A stretch of DNA of 64,000 bases, taken from the NCBI GenBank assembly GCA_040902225.1, contig JBBDXT010000007.1:1-64000 (forward strand). Direction: 5' to 3'. The notes below the pieces were generated by a model. The model ran no database searches. It was not told the origin of the DNA and saw nothing but the letters and a program-made list of their open reading frames with translations. Shown piece by piece: positions 1 to 64,000 of the stretch (positions are counted from its first letter, which is position 1; the number at the start of each line of letters is the position of its first letter). A program made the position numbers and the translations under genes. Source of the stretch: Chloroflexota bacterium. GTDB lineage: Bacteria > Chloroflexota > Limnocylindria > QHBO01.

Positions 1-743
1 GCGACCTGGCCACGCTGGTGACCGAGGTGACCGAACGCGAAGTCGCGCTCGACGACCTCCTGAGCCGGCTGGCCGAGCAGCGGTCGGCGTGCAGCGGTGT
101 GCTGCCCGCCGGCTGCCGCTTCTGGGTTCGCTCGCCCGAGGGACGGGAGGTGTTCGTGGTCGAACAGCTCCCGATGCGGCGCCAGATCGAGTACCACGCC
201 TCACGGCGGTACGGCTCCGAGCCGGTGACCCACCGGCTCAGCTTCCCGTACGTCGTGTTCGTGGTGCCGAGCGTCGGCGGTCGCATCGAGAGCGTCATGA
301 ACTTCTTCCGCACCAGCCCGCTGGGCAGCCTCGATGATCCGCTCGAGCACAGCTGCCTGCCCAACACCTCCGACGACGGCATCGTCTGCCTGGGATCGGT
401 ACAGGTGGCCGGCGACAGCAGCGCCGAACGGATCGAGGCGCTCATCGGGGCGTTCTGGGGATCGCGCTTCAACGCTGACATCCGGCGCCATCCGCTGCCG
501 TTCAGTGGAGGGTTCCGGGCGTGGGCGTCGCGCTCACGACGGGATCCGCTGGCCGGTCTGTCGGCCCCATACGACCGCTACTGGCGCACGCTGCGCCAGG
601 TGGTGGCCGCAGCGGCCGGCATGGCCCCCGAGGACCTGCCGGGAGCGGCGCCCAGCGGCGAGGGCCAGGCGTCAGTGGAGACGCCGGCGCCGGAGCAGGC
701 GCCGCCCGCGGAAGGAGGCGACTCCCATGCGGCGGCTGCTTGA
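1..743 (+). CDS. E2-like protein of a ubiquitin-like cassette (5' end cut by window)
   Basis: The frame is open to the left edge, so the true start may lie outside; the first visible start codon is GTG at 18, without a clear Shine-Dalgarno site. Numbered from that GTG (241 residues), the protein resembles the E2-like component of the ParB-related, ThiF-related (PRTRC, protein B / Prok-E2_D) cassette. A strand FPYVVFVVP (about 76-84) is followed by LPN and DDGIVCLGS (114-127), with C124 where the family keeps its conserved Cys. The last 40 residues are a Pro/Ala/Glu-rich, probably disordered tail. It overlaps the next gene by 17 bp and is followed by a JAMM peptidase and an E1-like gene, the usual partners. 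Family membership is from motifs; conjugation activity is inferred. Confidence 0.7.
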   Translation, partial: DLATLVTEVTEREVALDDLLSRLAEQRSACSGVLPAGCRFWVRSPEGREVFVVEQLPMRRQIEYHASRRYGSEPVTHRLSFPYVVFVVPSVGGRIESVMNFFRTSPLGSLDDPLEHSCLPNTSDDGIVCLGSVQVAGDSSAERIEALIGAFWGSRFNADIRRHPLPFSGGFRAWASRSRRDPLAGLSAPYDRYWRTLRQVVAAAAGMAPEDLPGAAPSGEGQASVETPAPEQAPPAEGGDSHAAAA

Positions 744-990
744 GCCGATGGCCCGCTGTCGGAGCCTCGAGTCCACGCGGACGACGGCATTGCTCGGCCA
801 GCGCCGGGCGGTGTACGCCACCGACGGCTCGATCCCCGGCGAGCTGGCCTGCGCGGCCTTCGCCGTGGCGGCCAAGCTGCTCAGAGACGGGGGGTTCCCC
901 CTCCGCGACGAGCGGCTGGTCGAGTACCGGCGCTTCGCTCACCTCGAGCGCATCGTCCTATGGCTGCCCGATCAGGAGGTGGGGCCATGA
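727..990 (+). CDS. Unrecognised 87-residue protein inside the ubiquitin-like cassette
   Basis: This gene is short but well supported. AAGGAGG lies about eight bases upstream of the ATG, its first 17 bases overlap the E2-like gene, and its TGA overlaps the ATG of the JAMM gene (ATGA). The protein is basic at the N-terminus, has a helical-looking middle (GELACAAFAVAAKLL) and ends in a strand-like IVLWLP segment. It lacks a C-terminal GG and I cannot match it to the small ubiquitin-like protein C of PRTRC cassettes. Its position between E2 and JAMM suggests an adaptor, substrate or small modifier; that role is a guess from context. Confidence 0.65.
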   Translation: MRRLLEPMARCRSLESTRTTALLGQRRAVYATDGSIPGELACAAFAVAAKLLRDGGFPLRDERLVEYRRFAHLERIVLWLPDQEVGP

Positions 991-1826
991 GCCTCTTTCC
1001 GATCATCACCGCGGACGAGTCCACGGTCGAGGAGGTCTCACTTCCCGCCTTCCTGGTGGCCCGCGACGGGCTCTACCTGCGCAAGCAGAGTCTTCTAGGA
1101 CTCTCGCAGACGCGGGTCGATGAAGTGGCCCACCTGCCAGCAGCCCGCGAGTACCTGGAGTACGCACTCCCCAAGGTGCCCGCGGCGCTGATGGGCCAGG
1201 TGGTCGGCTTCTTCCGCGCCATCTGGTCGCGGCAGAAGTCCGAGGCGCTGGCGCTGCTGAGCTGGGACGGCGAGTCGTTCGGACTGGTTATCCCAGAGCA
1301 GCGCGCCGGTGTTGCATCGGTCAAGCACCGGCTCGCTCCGGCGGACGTGCCCAATGGGGTGCGTCTGGTCGGCTCGGTTCACAGCCACGGCGCGCTGAGC
1401 GCCGGGGCCAGCCTGACCGACGAGGCCGACGAGGCCGACTTCGATGGCGTCCACATGGTCGTGGTCGGCGACGTCGACGAACGCAGGCCGAGCTACTCGG
1501 CGGCGATCGTGGTCGACGGCCGGCGCTTCGGCTGCCGCACCGCGCTGGTGCTGCAGCGGCCGCGGCGCTTCAGCTCACCTCCGGCCGAATGGCTGGAGCG
1601 GGTGAAGCCGATCGCGGTCGAGCCGAAGAAGGCCAAGGCCAACGGTCATGCCAGGCCGAACGGGAAGTCACGGTCCTCGTGGACGGTGTCGACCTGGACC
1701 TGGCGCGACCGGACCACGCTCGACCGGCTCCTCATCGAGGCGACCGAGCTGGCCAGCGAGCTGGGCGAGAGCCTGGTCTACCAGCTGACGCCGATCGCGA
1801 CGTCAGCCACGAAAGGAGGAACGTGA
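987..1826 (+). CDS. JAMM/MPN+ metallopeptidase of the ubiquitin-like cassette
   Basis: The 279-residue protein starts at ATG 987, with AGGAGGTGG just upstream; an earlier in-frame ATG at 960 lacks this site. The zinc peptidase motif is complete: E86, then H132-S-H134, seven residues, S142-x-x-D145. JAMM peptidases in such cassettes remove or trim ubiquitin-like modifiers, and this one corresponds to PRTRC protein A by order and layout. About 80 residues precede the JAMM fold; a Lys/Pro/Ala-rich linker near 210-232 precedes a C-terminal extension. Its stop overlaps the start of the E1-like gene (TGATG), which implies translational coupling. It is distinct from the small JAMM protein at the right end of the window. 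Confidence 0.8.
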   Translation: MSLFPIITADESTVEEVSLPAFLVARDGLYLRKQSLLGLSQTRVDEVAHLPAAREYLEYALPKVPAALMGQVVGFFRAIWSRQKSEALALLSWDGESFGLVIPEQRAGVASVKHRLAPADVPNGVRLVGSVHSHGALSAGASLTDEADEADFDGVHMVVVGDVDERRPSYSAAIVVDGRRFGCRTALVLQRPRRFSSPPAEWLERVKPIAVEPKKAKANGHARPNGKSRSSWTVSTWTWRDRTTLDRLLIEATELASELGESLVYQLTPIATSATKGGT

Positions 1827-2524
1827 TGATGCCTGAGCGCATCGTCCTGGTCGGACTGGGCGGCATCGGCTCCCAGCTGCTGCCCAGCCTGGTCCGCTAC
1901 CTGGCCTTCCGGCCAGAGCCACGCCCGATGCTGGTGCTCGTCGACGGCGACGCCTACGAGCCGGGCAACCGGACGCGGCAGGTCTTCCCCGAGAGCGCCA
2001 TCGGTTCGAACAAGGCCGAGGCCTTGGCCGAGGTGTATCGGGGCCTGACGGTGCAAGGGGTTGGCGACTACCTGACGGAGTCGAACGTGGCGGAGGTCAT
2101 CCGCGACGGCGACGCCGTCCTACTGGCGGTCGATAACCACTGGACCCGCTTCGTGGTCGACCAGCACCTCGCCACCTTGGACGAGGTGACGCTCATCAGC
2201 GGCGGCAACGACGAGACGGACGGCAACGTCCAGCTCGTCCGCCGCCGGGGTGGTCAGTTCGTCGACGGCAGCCTGGCCGAGATCCACGTGGAGATCGGGC
2301 GGGCCACCGAGGCCGAGTTCGCGGCCCGCAACGGCTGCGAGCGACAGGCCGAGGAGCGACCCCAGCTGGTGGTCACCAACCTGATGGTCGCCAGCGCGAT
2401 GCTCAACTGCCTGTGGGCGGTGCTCGAGCGCGGCAGCGTGTCCTACTCCGAGGTGTACCTCGACGTGATCGCGAACGCGATGAGATCGCGCTCGTGGTTG
2501 CGACAGGTGCAGCCCGCGGCGTAG
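1826..2524 (+). CDS. ThiF/E1-like adenylyltransferase
   Basis: This E1-like enzyme (232 residues) would adenylate the C-terminus of a ubiquitin-like modifier. The start at 1826 is set by AAAGGAGGA a few bases upstream and the TGATG overlap with the JAMM gene; an open frame reaching back to 1589 lies inside that gene and is rejected. The nucleotide-binding loop is GLGGIGSQ (10-17), with D40, N48, R49, R51 and K63 in the usual E1 adenylation pattern and D103 in AVDN. C171 and C195 are the only cysteines, so either could be the acceptor. No CxxC zinc pairs are seen. It is the last gene before a strong hairpin. Confidence 0.82.
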   Translation: MMPERIVLVGLGGIGSQLLPSLVRYLAFRPEPRPMLVLVDGDAYEPGNRTRQVFPESAIGSNKAEALAEVYRGLTVQGVGDYLTESNVAEVIRDGDAVLLAVDNHWTRFVVDQHLATLDEVTLISGGNDETDGNVQLVRRRGGQFVDGSLAEIHVEIGRATEAEFAARNGCERQAEERPQLVVTNLMVASAMLNCLWAVLERGSVSYSEVYLDVIANAMRSRSWLRQVQPAA

Positions 2525-2550
2525 GGCGGTTACCTCACGAGGTGAGGACC

Positions 2551-2585
2551 TGGCCGGGGAGGCGTCATGCGGCGCTCCCCGGCCA
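2551..2585 (+). terminator. Strong GC-rich hairpin after the ubiquitin-like operon
   Basis: TGGCCGGGGAG (2551-2561) pairs perfectly with CTCCCCGGCCA (2575-2585) around a 13-nt loop. A smaller hairpin, CCTCAC-GAG-GTGAGG (2533-2547), precedes it. There is no U-tract, as is common for terminators in GC-rich genomes. The hairpin separates the four-gene cassette from the ATPase gene. Confidence 0.55.
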
Positions 2586-2615
2586 ATCCACTCAACACAT
2601 AGCAGAGACGTTGCG

Positions 2616-3833
2616 ATGAACACATCGGCGCTGGCACGACAACCGAATCCACTGCCCAACCCGTTCCGACCCGGCAACGGCGTTCCGCCGCCGTACCTGG
2701 CAGGGCGCGACCGGCTTCTGGCGGCCTTCGAGGACTGGCTGCTCGAGGCGCCGCCCCTGCACGCCAACTGGGCACTGACCGGCCTGCGCGGCACCGGCAA
2801 GACGGTGCTGCTCGGCGAGTTCGCGGCACGCGCCGAACGCGCCGGCTGGCTGACCCTGCAGCGCGAGCTGGGCGACCGCCATCGCGACGACGTGCGCTTC
2901 GCCGAGGCGCTGGCCGAGGACTGCGAGGCGCTGATCGGCCGTGCCGACGCGATCGCCGCGGTGGGGCAGGCGGTCGAGCGCGGGGCGCGCTGGCTGCGCC
3001 CCAAGCGCATCACCGTCGGCGAGGTCAGCGTCGATCCTGAGTATGCCTCCGAGGAGGCGCCGCCGGCAGATGTCATGCGAATCGCTTTCGCGCAGCTCGA
3101 TTCGATCCTCAGCCACAGCAAGCGACCGGGAGCCATCCTCCTGTACGACGAGGCCCATCTGCTGGCCGATGACCGGCGATCTGAGCGCTTCCCGCTGTCG
3201 AGCCTACTCGCCGCTCTCGGTGCGGTGCAACGCCAGCGGCCCCGGGTCCGTGTTGTCCTGGGCGGCCTCCCGACCCTGAGCCTCAACCTCAAGCGCGCCC
3301 GCACCTATGCCGAGCGCATGTTCCGCCACGCGGTGGTCGACAACCTCGAGCTTGAGGCTGCCTCGGAGGCGTTGGCGATCCCTCTGGCCACCAGTGGCCG
3401 GGGCTTCGGCCTGTCGCTCATCGGCGAGATCGTCGAGCAGACGGCCGGCTATCCGTACTTCCTGCAGTTCTTCGGCGCGTTCACCTGTAGCCGGATCGGG
3501 CTCGACCATATCGCGCTCGAGGACTTCCAGCGGGTCGAGGCGGCACTGCTGCACGAGCTCGACCTGGCCTTCTTCGAGGATCGCTTCGAGGGCGCCGCGC
3601 CGACCGAACAGGTACTGCTGCTAGCCATGGCCCGCTGCGGCGGTCGCGCCACGCTGGCGCGCCTGTACGACGAGGCGGGCAGCGCGGTCAATGTGCCGGT
3701 TGGCCTGCGGCGGCTGATGGACCGCGGCCTGGTCTACCGGCCCACGCGCGCTACGTACGACTTCGCGCTGCCCCTGTTCGGCTCGTACCTGCGGCGGCGG
3801 GCGAAAATAACAAAGTTATCGTCGGGACGATAA
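2616..3833 (+). CDS. AAA+ ATPase (AAA_16/ORC-like)
   Basis: The 405-residue P-loop ATPase has Walker A GLRGTGKT (56-63) and Walker B ILLYDEAH (174-181). A lid-like region rich in Arg/Leu follows and a winged-helix-like C-terminus (about 310-390) may bind DNA. No signal peptide or membrane segment is seen. Such ATPases often accompany mobile elements or ubiquitin-like and defence cassettes as DNA-dependent or regulatory motors. Here it lies between the E1-like gene and a tyrosine recombinase, and its stop codon falls inside a perfect palindrome just 5 bp before the recombinase start. The exact role is unknown. It could work with the ubiquitin-like cassette or with the recombinase. Confidence 0.75.
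   Translation: MNTSALARQPNPLPNPFRPGNGVPPPYLAGRDRLLAAFEDWLLEAPPLHANWALTGLRGTGKTVLLGEFAARAERAGWLTLQRELGDRHRDDVRFAEALAEDCEALIGRADAIAAVGQAVERGARWLRPKRITVGEVSVDPEYASEEAPPADVMRIAFAQLDSILSHSKRPGAILLYDEAHLLADDRRSERFPLSSLLAALGAVQRQRPRVRVVLGGLPTLSLNLKRARTYAERMFRHAVVDNLELEAASEALAIPLATSGRGFGLSLIGEIVEQTAGYPYFLQFFGAFTCSRIGLDHIALEDFQRVEAALLHELDLAFFEDRFEGAAPTEQVLLLAMARCGGRATLARLYDEAGSAVNVPVGLRRLMDRGLVYRPTRATYDFALPLFGSYLRRRAKITKLSSGR
3807..3833 (+). promoter_or_regulatory. AT-rich double palindrome at the ATPase-recombinase junction
   Basis: TTATCGTC-GG-GACGATAA (3816-3833) is a perfect inverted repeat overlapping the stop codon of the ATPase. An overlapping inverted repeat, ATAAC-AAA-GTTAT (3807-3819), shares its middle arm. 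The stretch is markedly AT-rich for this DNA and ends 5 bp before the recombinase ATG. It could be an operator, an attenuator-like hairpin or a recombinase-binding site. Confidence 0.5.
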
Positions 3834-3838
3834 TTTCG

Positions 3839-4786
3839 ATGCCGATGCGCCCAGCACTGCCATCCAGCCTCCTGTTCGATCCCGCATTGGACGAGCTGAT
3901 CGCAGACTACGAGCAAGCACTCCGCGCAGAAGGGCGCAGCCCACGCACGATCGAGTGGTATGAAATGTTCCTGCGCGAGTTCTGCCGCTTCGCAGGGCGC
4001 GCGGGCCGGACGCTGACGTTGGATGACCTGTCTCCGCCCGTCGCTCGTCGCTGGCTAGTCGCACTTCGATCCAGACCGAAGCCACCGGCGCCCGCCAGCC
4101 TGGCCGGACGCGTGCGCTCCCTGCGCGCCTTTGGGAGCTGGATACAGTCCGAGTTCGAACTAGACCGTCACCCGTTGCAGGGACTGAAAACGCCGCGCGT
4201 TCCACGCACCCTGATCCATTCGTTGCGCGATTCGGACGTGCGAGCCCTACTCGCCGCCGCCGGTCAAGGGCCGTGTGGCGACCGAGACGCGGCACTCCTG
4301 CTCGTCATGCTCGATTCAGGCATACGGTTGAGCGAGGTCAGCGGGTTGCACGTGGCGGATGTCGACTTCGAGAACGGTTACTGTCAGGTCATGGGCAAGG
4401 GCTCAAAGGAGCGCCGCGTGCCGCTCGGGCGCTCGGCACGCCGCGCGCTACGTCGGATTGTCTTGGCTCGTGGCCACGTGGCGGCCAGCGCGCCACTATT
4501 CATCGCCGCCACCGGAGAGCCATTGAGCCGTTCCGGGGTGCAGAAGATCGTGCGCCGTGCTGCGGACCGCGCCGGCCTCGAGGTCCGTTGCTCGCCGCAC
4601 ATCTTGCGCCACACCTTCGCGCGTTCCTTCTTGGCGAACGGTGGAGATGTCTTTAGCCTGCAGCGGATTCTGGGCCACAGTCCCGCGTCGCTCGACGTGA
4701 CCCGGCGTTACGTGGAACTCCTCGACGAAGACCTGCGGGAGGTGCACCGCCGGGCATCGCCCATGGACCTACTGCGCCACCGTTGA
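3839..4786 (+). CDS. Tyrosine recombinase/integrase (XerC/D-like)
   Basis: The 315-residue protein has the two-domain layout of XerC/D-type recombinases. It has a SAM-like core-binding domain (about 15-115) and a catalytic domain carrying R163 (GIRLSE), the K of MGKGSKERR (187), H254-x-x-R257, H280 (LGH) and Y291. ATG 3839 is used; ATG 3845 is possible. The protein is strikingly similar to the second recombinase of this window (22022-23041), sharing SPxTIEWY near the N-terminus and CSPHxLRHTFA plus GGDxFSLQRILGH in the catalytic part. A tRNA-Thr fragment lies 70 bp downstream, which suggests that it acts as an integrase on a tRNA target. Confidence 0.9.
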   Translation: MPMRPALPSSLLFDPALDELIADYEQALRAEGRSPRTIEWYEMFLREFCRFAGRAGRTLTLDDLSPPVARRWLVALRSRPKPPAPASLAGRVRSLRAFGSWIQSEFELDRHPLQGLKTPRVPRTLIHSLRDSDVRALLAAAGQGPCGDRDAALLLVMLDSGIRLSEVSGLHVADVDFENGYCQVMGKGSKERRVPLGRSARRALRRIVLARGHVAASAPLFIAATGEPLSRSGVQKIVRRAADRAGLEVRCSPHILRHTFARSFLANGGDVFSLQRILGHSPASLDVTRRYVELLDEDLREVHRRASPMDLLRHR

Positions 4787-4857
4787 ACGGCGTCCTGAGA
4801 AGGAATCAGGTCGTTCCGTGGGCACCGATGGTCCACGCGACCAATTCGTCCTCTCAA

Positions 4858-4898
4858 AGCCAAGTAGCTCAGCGTCGAGCAACGGTTTCGTAAACCGT
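4858..4898 (+). pseudogene. 5' half of tRNA-Thr(CGT), probable attachment-site remnant
   Basis: The run starts with seven acceptor-strand bases, then TAGCTCAG and a D-arm with GCTC/GAGC, then a complete anticodon arm: stem ACGGT/ACCGT with loop TTCGTAA and anticodon CGT. This matches bacterial tRNA-Thr(CGT). The variable loop, T-arm and 3' acceptor strand are missing, so it is not a working tRNA. The break just after the anticodon arm, next to an integrase gene, is what integration at the anticodon arm would leave. Confidence 0.65.
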
Positions 4899-5252
4899 GC
4901 TCGCCATGCTTTTGCCGCCGATACTCAGATCAGAAACAACTGCTGGGGGGCGTGAGTCGAGCGTAGGCCCCCCGTATGACCGCAGTTCTGGCGGCGCGGC
5001 CGGATCTGGGCATTCGACCGCGTACGCCCTCCAGATTGCCCCCCACGCGGGGATGTCACCCCGCCAGATGCACCTCGAACAGCCACGGGCCATCGATCTG
5101 AGTGGTGCGTCCGGGCAGTAGCCGTTGGGGTCTCTGACGGTCACTTTATGGCTGCAACCGAGCGGCGGCAGGTCGCGGCGTCGGCTAGTGCTGGAGGGAC
5201 GCATAGCAGCCCGCTGCTTGCCACGGGGCGCACAACTGGCCACGATGGCGGC
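4899..5252. other. Gap without recognisable gene
   Basis: Open frames on both strands here have no start signals and no recognisable motif. It may be decayed element DNA to the right of the tRNA-Thr fragment. Confidence 0.5.
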
Positions 5253-5657
5253 ATGGCCTACTGGATCATCAGCCTGGCGCTCATTGTCTTTGGATTTCTT
5301 GGCTCGTGGAGCATCGGGCAGCCGTTCCTGCTGGTCGGTCTGGCAATGCTGGTGCTCGGCGTATTTCGGCATCGCCCGCTGGTCTTCTGGCCGCCGATGC
5401 TTGCGGTGATCGCCTACAACATCGTCTATTGGGCTGTAGCACCCTTTTGGTGTGCTACCAGCGAGGCGATCGGGGGGACCTCGCGCACGGTGTGCCGGAG
5501 TCTTATCGGGCTTCGATTTGAGGGAGAAGGCATCTACAACCCGTCGCTCATGCCCGCGATCGTTGCGGGTCACGTGGTAGCCGCGTTAGTCCTGGTAGTC
5601 GCCTTTGCGCTCCTATGGCGGGATCGCCGCGAGCAGTGGAACGCGGCCGCGAGCTGA
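5253..5657 (+). CDS. Small multi-spanning membrane protein, unknown function
   Basis: The predicted 134-residue protein starts at ATG 5253. It has about four hydrophobic segments (roughly 4-22, 24-40, 46-66 and 98-118) with a polar loop of about 30 residues containing two cysteines between segments three and four, and a basic C-terminus (RDRREQW). An upstream in-frame ATG at 5148 would add a hydrophilic stretch that looks non-coding. I do not recognise the family. No operon partner is obvious, as the neighbouring DNA on both sides holds no clear gene. Confidence 0.5.
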   Translation: MAYWIISLALIVFGFLGSWSIGQPFLLVGLAMLVLGVFRHRPLVFWPPMLAVIAYNIVYWAVAPFWCATSEAIGGTSRTVCRSLIGLRFEGEGIYNPSLMPAIVAGHVVAALVLVVAFALLWRDRREQWNAAAS

Positions 5658-6083
5658 GGCTGCCACACTCGTCCCAGCAGATAGCCGGCCGAACCGCCCG
5701 GATCGGCCAATCTGAGCGTGAACCACGGAACGGAAGGCGCGCCGGGAGGCGTCTTGGGCTTGCGTGACCCCGCTTGGGGCCCCGAAGATGGGGACCGTCC
5801 CCGCGCCACCGGCCACGGTGTCCAGCGCACTCACCCCCAGCCCGCGGGCACGGCAGCTAAGCATCCTGAAGCACTGCGGTTGGGGCAGCTCTTGCGGCTC
5901 GTGTTCCCGGAGTACTTCCGCTAGTCGGGTAGCGCCTGACGAGCACGCACCGGCACTCTTGACGTGGCGCTCGGCTGGTCGCCTAATACCGCGCATGGGG
6001 CGGATCGGCGCGGGGTAGTTGCTCATTCCACTGCTGCTGGCCGCCTGTGCCAGGACGGATAGCCCGCGTACCGGCGGTGTCCG
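5658..6083. other. Gap without recognisable gene
   Basis: Only short, overlapping open frames on both strands are present and none has a motif or start signal I can support. Confidence 0.5.
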
Positions 6084-63211: not shown

Positions 63212-63217
63212 AGGTTA
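63212..63217 (-). promoter_or_regulatory. -10 box for leaderless M24 peptidase gene
   Basis: On the minus strand TAACCT lies 8 bp before the ATG, overlapping the stop codon of the JAMM gene. Confidence 0.5.
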
Positions 63218-63637
63218 CCCGATCGTCAGCGGCACCTCGAATGCCTGCCCGCGGTAGATCCGCCACGCGCGAAGGGCGCGGGCGGGTGGCGCATCGGCCT
63301 CTGACAGGCTTGCCAGCAGGTAGAACGGGTCTGGGTACATCGCCGTGCGACGGTCGGTCGCCGATGGCACCGCCGCGGAGTGGGTGTGCGAGTGGAAGAT
63401 GGCGACCAGCTCCTCACCGGCGTCCTCGATGGCGAAGGTGATGCGAACCAGGTCCTCGGGATGCACGTTGTAGCGGAGTGGCGAGGCCTCCACGTTCCGG
63501 GCAGGGTGGAACCGGGTGGCGAGCCCGGTGCCGAGCGATCCGGAGAGGATGCCACACGACTCGTTCGGCAGCTCGGCGCGAGCGTGGCGCATCAGCTCAT
63601 CGGCGACCGATGGGGGCAGGCCAAGACCCTTCACCAC
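63215..63637 (-). CDS. mec: Small JAMM metallopeptidase, Mec-like
   Basis: The 140-residue protein is a minimal JAMM fold: E26 (PNESCGIL), H82-S-H84, seven residues, S92-x-x-D95. This matches Mec of mycobacteria, which releases cysteine from the sulfur carrier CysO after CysM has built it there. The overlap with the cysM stop codon supports that pathway. The CysO gene itself is not in the window; it may lie upstream of cysM. Confidence 0.85.
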   Translation of the reverse strand: MVKGLGLPPSVADELMRHARAELPNESCGILSGSLGTGLATRFHPARNVEASPLRYNVHPEDLVRITFAIEDAGEELVAIFHSHTHSAAVPSATDRRTAMYPDPFYLLASLSEADAPPARALRAWRIYRGQAFEVPLTIG

Positions 63638-64000
63638 AGCAGCGAGCGCTCCAGCTCCTCGTCCAGGTCGTCCAGGTCGCGGTCGTAGATGCCGGTCGAC
63701 AGGTACTTCCAGCCTCCGTCGGCCAGCAGCACGACGATGTTCCCCTCTTCCATCTCGTCCGCGGCTCGCAGGGCCACGTTCAACGCCGCGCCGGACGAGA
63801 GGCCGGCGAAGATCCGCTCCTCGCGCATCAGGCGCCGCACGCCGATCACCGCGTCGCGGTTGCTGACCAGGTACCGGTCGTCCAGGACCGATGCGTCCAG
63901 CACCGGCGGCACGAATCCCTCGTCGAGATTTCGCAGGCCCTGCACCTGCTCCCCGGGGAGTGGCTCCGCGGCGATGACCCGCGTGCCGGGCCGCTCTTGC
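63631..64000 (-). CDS. cysM: Cysteine synthase, 3' part (5' end beyond window)
   Basis: Only the C-terminal 122 residues are visible; the frame is open to the right edge. RVIAAEPLPGEQVQGLRNLDEGFVP and GLSSGAALNVALRAADEM are typical of CysM, and the C-terminus ends in RDLDDLDEELERSLLW, the long acidic tail seen in CysM proteins that use a thiocarboxylated CysO. The stop lies inside the start of the Mec-like gene, giving an overlap of seven bases. Confidence 0.88.
   Translation of the reverse strand, partial: QERPGTRVIAAEPLPGEQVQGLRNLDEGFVPPVLDASVLDDRYLVSNRDAVIGVRRLMREERIFAGLSSGAALNVALRAADEMEEGNIVVLLADGGWKYLSTGIYDRDLDDLDEELERSLLW

Follow-up and report, generated by a model that had tools for sequence, protein, structure and literature searches.

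A putative ubiquitin-like conjugation cassette of the PRTRC/type 6d kind on mobile elements of uncultured Chloroflexota

Gene layout and conservation of the locus

The window, that is the whole stretch of 64,000 nucleotides of Chloroflexota DNA analysed here, lies at the left end of contig C7 in a genome of 2.28 Mb assembled in 7 contigs. Four translationally coupled open reading frames were confirmed at positions 1-2524, coding for an E2-like protein, an 87-aa protein, a JAMM peptidase and an E1-like enzyme. The E2 gene overlaps that of the small protein by 17 nt, the latter overlaps the JAMM gene by 4 nt, and the JAMM and E1 genes share 1 nt (TGATG). GGAGG-type ribosome sites precede the small-protein, JAMM and E1 genes, and an AAA_16 ATPase gene followed by a Xer-type recombinase gene lies 3' of the E1 gene. 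A preliminary description of this DNA had reported an overlapping E2-JAMM-E1 set with strong ribosome-binding sites, linked to an ATPase and a recombinase. All of these open reading frames, overlaps and sites are indeed present, and the two linked genes are identified by PF13191 and by PF00589 and XerC matches, respectively. The features of the locus, in window coordinates, are the following:

1-743 (reading frame 3-743), + strand: putative E2-like conjugating enzyme of a Prok-E2_D clade, 5' end cut (PF14460, E=2.9e-5)
1-55, no strand: stretch identical to the second cassette copy on contig C2, ending where the two copies diverge
727-990, + strand: 87-aa protein of no known family, conserved in position and length
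987-1826, + strand: JAMM/JAB peptidase with an N-terminal extension, PRTRC_A-like (TIGR03735, E 7.8e-8; PF14464, E=7.6e-5)
1826-2524, + strand: E1/ThiF-type adenylating enzyme, 232 aa, single domain (PF00899, E=3.1e-18; PRTRC_ThiF, E 2.7e-12)
2525-2586, + strand: structured non-coding element, a small hairpin and a 14-pair GC hairpin, with no T tract
2616-3833, + strand: AAA_16-type ATPase (PF13191, E 1.2e-7)
3839-4786, + strand: Xer-type tyrosine recombinase (PF00589, E 3.8e-35; XerC model, E 3.4e-57)

A scan of one genome per species, covering 84,980 species, returned 27 further loci, of which 26 are labelled Chloroflexi and 1 Acidimicrobiia, all of them metagenome-assembled. The gene order is kept in all 27, so that the linkage in relatives, proposed earlier as a check, proved to be strict. 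The dN/dS ratio in the coding frames is 0.13-0.46, showing purifying selection on every gene, and for the small gene it exceeds 1 only in two wrong frames. The conserved order and this dN/dS pattern together indicate that the genes are not chance open reading frames. The E2 gene was found in 16 of the 177 genomes of the window's class, and several genomes contain three or four cassette copies. Viral carriage was rejected, since the viral contigs searched contained no relatives; plasmid records gave only distant PRTRC/ThiF relatives. Two copies may be decaying or may reflect assembly errors: the JAMM and E1 genes are apparently frameshifted in one (L045 / L069, G394:C97), and the E2 gene is shortened in the other (L046 / L075, G129:C29).

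The predicted conjugation proteins and their modifier

The same genome contains a second cassette copy (C2:21475-23998, numbered below as locus L003), which is 86% identical to the window copy. Upstream of its E2 gene, and preceded by an AAGGAGA site, lies the gene of a 78-aa ThiS-family protein (L003:10113-10349; PF02597, E 9.9e-7), which starts 325 bp and ends 88 bp before the E2 gene. A modifier gene was found at this position in all the loci with room for it (24/24). Over its first 55 nt the window matches the C2 copy without a difference, after which the copies diverge; a k-mer assembler would be expected to break a contig in this way, with exactly 55 bases in common, at a repeat boundary. 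The modifier gene is therefore missing from the window because the contig starts at a repeat boundary within the E2 gene; a true absence was rejected. The statement in the preliminary description that no obvious modifier gene was present reflects this contig edge, and the suggestion to look further left for ubiquitin-like and ParB-like genes was borne out for the former only, with a ThiS-type gene upstream in C2 and no ParB seen. Given the identical 55-mer at the break and the single VirD4 gene found in this genome, the second copy may represent strain variation within the metagenome bin and not a second element.

The modifier ends in AGVKG followed by a variable tail of 1 or 3 residues in 25/25 proteins found by pattern, with 15 different tails, although the pattern itself demanded AG-x-KG and was escaped only by L063 (GDELEF), L074 (N-masked) and L079 (contig edge). 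The L063 modifier, found besides these 25, ends in AGVKGREA. A constant AGVKG before a variable tail leads to the prediction that the JAMM peptidase trims the modifier to a reactive glycine. In the canonical Prok_Ub modifiers of this phylum the motif is GTKG; it is terminal in L115 and L118 and is followed by an extension in others. In a profile comparison, ThiS-type and Prok_Ub modifiers join only over the last 12 columns (P 9e-4), a match that appears too short to establish common descent of the whole protein.

The E2-like protein of the window has lost its first 13 codons at the contig edge, and residues are numbered here on the full-length copy (L003:10438-11217). The motif DDGIVCLGS, on which the earlier identification was based, contains the predicted catalytic cysteine (387-389, C142), preceded by an asparagine (363-365, N134). 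These two residues and G144 are invariant among 35-39 Prok-E2_D proteins, and the identification holds on the open reading frame, the family match and the invariant Asn and Cys. The window protein scores 24.3 bits against PF14460 (cut-off 25) and counts as above the cut-off only with its neighbours in frame, other E2s of the same clade exceeding it and reaching 33 bits. Classical E2s have a P-N-x7-C spacing and a glycine at -3, and the cassette E2 matches both; the histidine of the HPN motif is replaced by leucine (LPN). Another histidine, H176, is invariant in a 10-sequence alignment of the clade but not across the wider Prok-E2_D family.

No solved structure was found by sequence search. A model built on 35 sequences had a middling pLDDT of 70, with the best core parts at 83-93; it replaced a first model from 10 sequences (pLDDT 49.8) that gave meaningless matches and no E2. 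The top five PDB matches of the second model in Foldseek were mammalian UBE2L3/UBE2L6 (probability 0.38-0.72), all non-significant, with a best E of 0.055. The comparison with E2 folds that had been proposed ranks E2s first, below statistical significance and on a middling model. In the tree, a branch with support of 100/100 sets 19/19 cassette E2s apart, with a long stem between them and the other Prok-E2_D proteins of the phylum. By its sequence, the cassette E2 is assigned to Prok-E2_D, but in a clade of its own.

The zinc motif of the JAMM peptidase, HSHG-x6-S-x2-D (1380-1421), is complete, as described earlier, and present in 27 of 29 loci; the window protein gives 23 bits with PF14464, just under the cut-off of 25. 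The E1, far over the cut-off of PF00899, conserves the nucleotide-binding and catalytic residues in GLGGIGS, VDGD, NR(T)RQ, K and AVDN, in agreement with the adenylation residues previously noted. Its candidate catalytic cysteine (2336-2338, C171) is conserved and is found also in PRTRC-like E1s. The 87-aa protein keeps its place and length (mostly 85-92 aa) across loci, but it is fast-evolving and belongs to no Pfam or NCBIfam family. No E3 was recognised.

Two other JAMM sequences lie outside the cassette. L067 contains a further JAMM-like motif, HSHGGLARMSPTD. At 63215-63945 of the window, on the - strand, lies another JAMM protein, unrelated to the first (Prok-JAB, E 7.5e-22). Next to it is a cysteine synthase-type PLP-dependent enzyme, and the pair, truncated at the end of the window, looks like a chromosomal sulfur-metabolism locus.

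The structured element, the AAA ATPase and the mobile context

The element directly 3' of the E1 gene (L003:12999-13062 in the C2 copy) consists of a short hairpin and a GC-rich hairpin. In an alignment of 25 sequences, 91.6% of the cells pair, and changes on both sides of a pair occur in 15 cells as compared to 3.6 in shuffled alignments (0/500 shuffles reach 15, and slid controls are lower), an excess that is partly built in, as alignment and structure were derived from the same 25 sequences. In the subgroup to which the window belongs, the first hairpin fails to align. A covariance model placed the element after E1 in 16/16 cassette loci searched, including L080, which is outside the model, and in 0/6 type 6d-like loci; over the whole genome its matches were confined to the two cassettes. 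L063 has an additional, partial copy (L063:15036-15080) just before the AAA gene, beyond a TIR gene. An Rfam search of window positions 1-6000 gave nothing above the gathering score and no family for the element, which is apparently previously unrecorded. The element may be an attenuator of transcription reading into the AAA gene, a substrate for processing, or a site of recombination.

Of 25 loci with enough sequence after E1, 20 have the AAA ATPase gene within 900 bp 3' of it, and 22 have the gene somewhere downstream. Among the 177 genomes of the class, 16 have the E2 and 17 the AAA gene, and 10 have both (Fisher p 2e-8, in a test that ignores kinship among genomes). Most AAA genes with no E2 on their contig are cut at contig ends and two adjoin an E1, for which reason an independent orphan family was rejected. 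Synonymous divergence between the window and C2 copies is 0.26-0.38 for the four cassette genes and 0.81 for the AAA gene, which indicates that the locus is a mosaic.

Upstream of the cassette on C2 are relaxase-like, VirB4/VirD4-like and M23/SLT genes. Of 11 related genomes, 7 have a VirD4 homologue on the contig that carries the cassette, as does the window's own genome, where it is the only one found. None was found in three cassette genomes (G041, G129, G240), so that conjugative elements carry many copies but not all. Recombinases of different classes stand at the same place in different loci (Xer type, serine type or phage-type tyrosine integrase). Variable cargo sits between or beyond E1 and AAA, such as an N6/N4 DNA methylase (L003:13029-14378), a TIR protein (L063:12902-13876) and a HATPase protein (L061:13854-15947). 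In L071 (15726-17653), a second ThiF protein adjoins an unassigned 206-aa protein. Two loci (L073:13176-16360 and L080:15348-18974) have beside the cassette a second, unrelated ubiquitin-like operon with Multi_ubiq, a DUF6791-ThiF and an HTH-ImmA/IrrE protein, and in L080 also DUF6527.

Relation to known systems and proposed function

The closest likeness is to operon type 6d, which comprises a Ubl, a JAB with an N-terminal domain, an E1-like, an E2-like and an alpha-helical protein (Iyer et al. 2006, PMC1779556), and whose E2 has no classical histidine and an absolutely conserved histidine after the cysteine (PMC1779556). The cassette has the same kinds of genes in one operon, a Ubl with a conserved C-terminal glycine, an E2 lacking the classical histidine, a JAMM with an N-terminal extension and a small extra protein. 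It differs from type 6d in its ThiS-family modifier with a short tail, in the position of the small protein between E2 and JAMM, in the attached AAA ATPase and structured element, and in the separate E2 clade. In the Chloroflexota loci of the 6d type that were examined, E2, JAMM and E1 are directly adjacent, with DnaN-like clamps upstream in three. The small protein has no similarity to three Chloroflexota 95-aa proteins (hhalign probability 0.1%), which may or may not be the alpha-helical protein of type 6d.

The resemblance to PRTRC systems (TIGR03735-TIGR03737; Prok-E2_D, Prok_Ub), noted earlier, concerns the kind of system and not membership. The E2 is PRTRC_B-like, the JAMM PRTRC_A-like and the E1 PRTRC_ThiF-like, the proteins being homologous, and the Ubl end G[T/V]KG is shared. 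The NCBIfam scores are all far below the cut-offs (PRTRC_A 32.1 against 101.8 bits, PRTRC_B 19.7 against 131.45, PRTRC_ThiF 46.6 against 144.75), and the modifier matches the ThiS family and neither Prok_Ub nor PRTRC_C. Full PRTRC membership was rejected on both grounds. Judged from these relationships, the cassette is best described as a new branch of the PRTRC/type 6d kind, on mobile elements of uncultured Chloroflexota.

Our main reading, to which we give a probability of roughly 0.65, is that the cassette encodes a complete ubiquitin-like conjugation and deconjugation biochemistry and is carried on mobile elements. The biochemistry taken by itself appears likely, and the carrier elements would be integrative and often conjugative. 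The main reading is grounded in the gene order, the intact conserved catalytic residues, the C-terminal pattern of the modifier, the purifying selection and the placement on mobile elements. In the presumed order of reactions, the JAMM peptidase would cut behind the invariant AGVKG of the ThiS-type modifier and so remove its tail of 1 or 3 residues, and the E1 would adenylate the freed glycine and take the modifier on its conserved cysteine. The E2 would then receive it on Cys142 and pass it to lysines of target proteins, from which the JAMM would also remove it. The targets may be the element's own proteins, the linked AAA ATPase being the first candidate, and the hairpin after E1 would probably set AAA expression relative to the conjugation operon. 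If the targets are indeed the element's own proteins, the cassette would control the excision, transfer or establishment of the element, a tentative proposal to which we give somewhat less than even odds.

The preliminary description had suggested a link of the cassette to mobile-element maintenance or defence. Carriage on mobile elements is supported by conjugation genes, recombinases and several copies per genome. Maintenance and defence are rivals to our reading, defence being the main one. Bil and CBASS E1-E2-JAB systems tag proteins on infection, and a similar anti-phage or anti-element role, in which the cassette, as mobile cargo, tags invader or host proteins, is possible but doubtful. 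It would fit the patchy distribution in the class and the methylase, TIR, Multi_ubiq, ThiF and HATPase genes of the neighbouring slot, but the cassette is constant while these defence-type genes vary around it, and the operon has no recurrent effector or sensor besides the AAA ATPase. Type II CBASS (Cap2/Cap3) combines an E1-E2 fusion with a CD-NTase; the cassette shares its E1, E2 and JAB activities but has E1 and E2 as separate genes, and no CD-NTase or other nucleotidyltransferase was present among the recurring neighbour clusters examined. The E1 weakly matches the PADLOC E1-E2 and BilD models, although over the shared ThiF core only (for BilD, residues 2-114, E 2.3e-4). Bil also unites Ubl, E1, E2 and JAMM in one operon, with a tandem-Ubl BilA and a two-domain E1, BilD (PMC11354881), whereas the cassette has a single-domain 78-aa Ubl and a single-domain 232-aa E1.

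A PRTRC-like module for plasmid or element maintenance, working with partition or replication proteins, seems unlikely. The E2, JAMM and E1 are PRTRC-related, the canonical relatives in the phylum adjoin DnaN-like clamps, and a Marinobacter plasmid carries a PRTRC set with ParB, but neither a ParB nor a clamp gene was found among the recurring neighbours of this clade within about 10 kb. A sulfur-carrier pathway would have the E1 and its ThiS-type partner form a thiocarboxylate, with the JAMM as tail-trimming enzyme and the E2-like protein in a non-conjugating role. It agrees with the ThiS and ThiF matches but is very improbable given the constant presence of a protein of the E2 family whose Asn and Cys are invariant, the lack of recurring sulfur, cysteine or cofactor genes nearby and the mobile-element context.

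Returning to ubiquitin-like conjugation on a mobile element, we regard as rather speculative a further picture, in which a eukaryote-like tagging pathway would have the AAA ATPase as dedicated substrate or effector and a cassette-specific structured RNA or folded DNA site that balances or rearranges the module, the whole being a post-translational switch for the mobility of conjugative elements. The role of the PRTRC/type 6d branch is apparently not established, as a literature search returned no functional study. The cassette is compact, its modifier is defined and has a clear site of processing, its AAA partner is constant, and mobile elements carry it in several copies per genome; these properties would make the E1-E2-modifier chemistry and its target directly testable.
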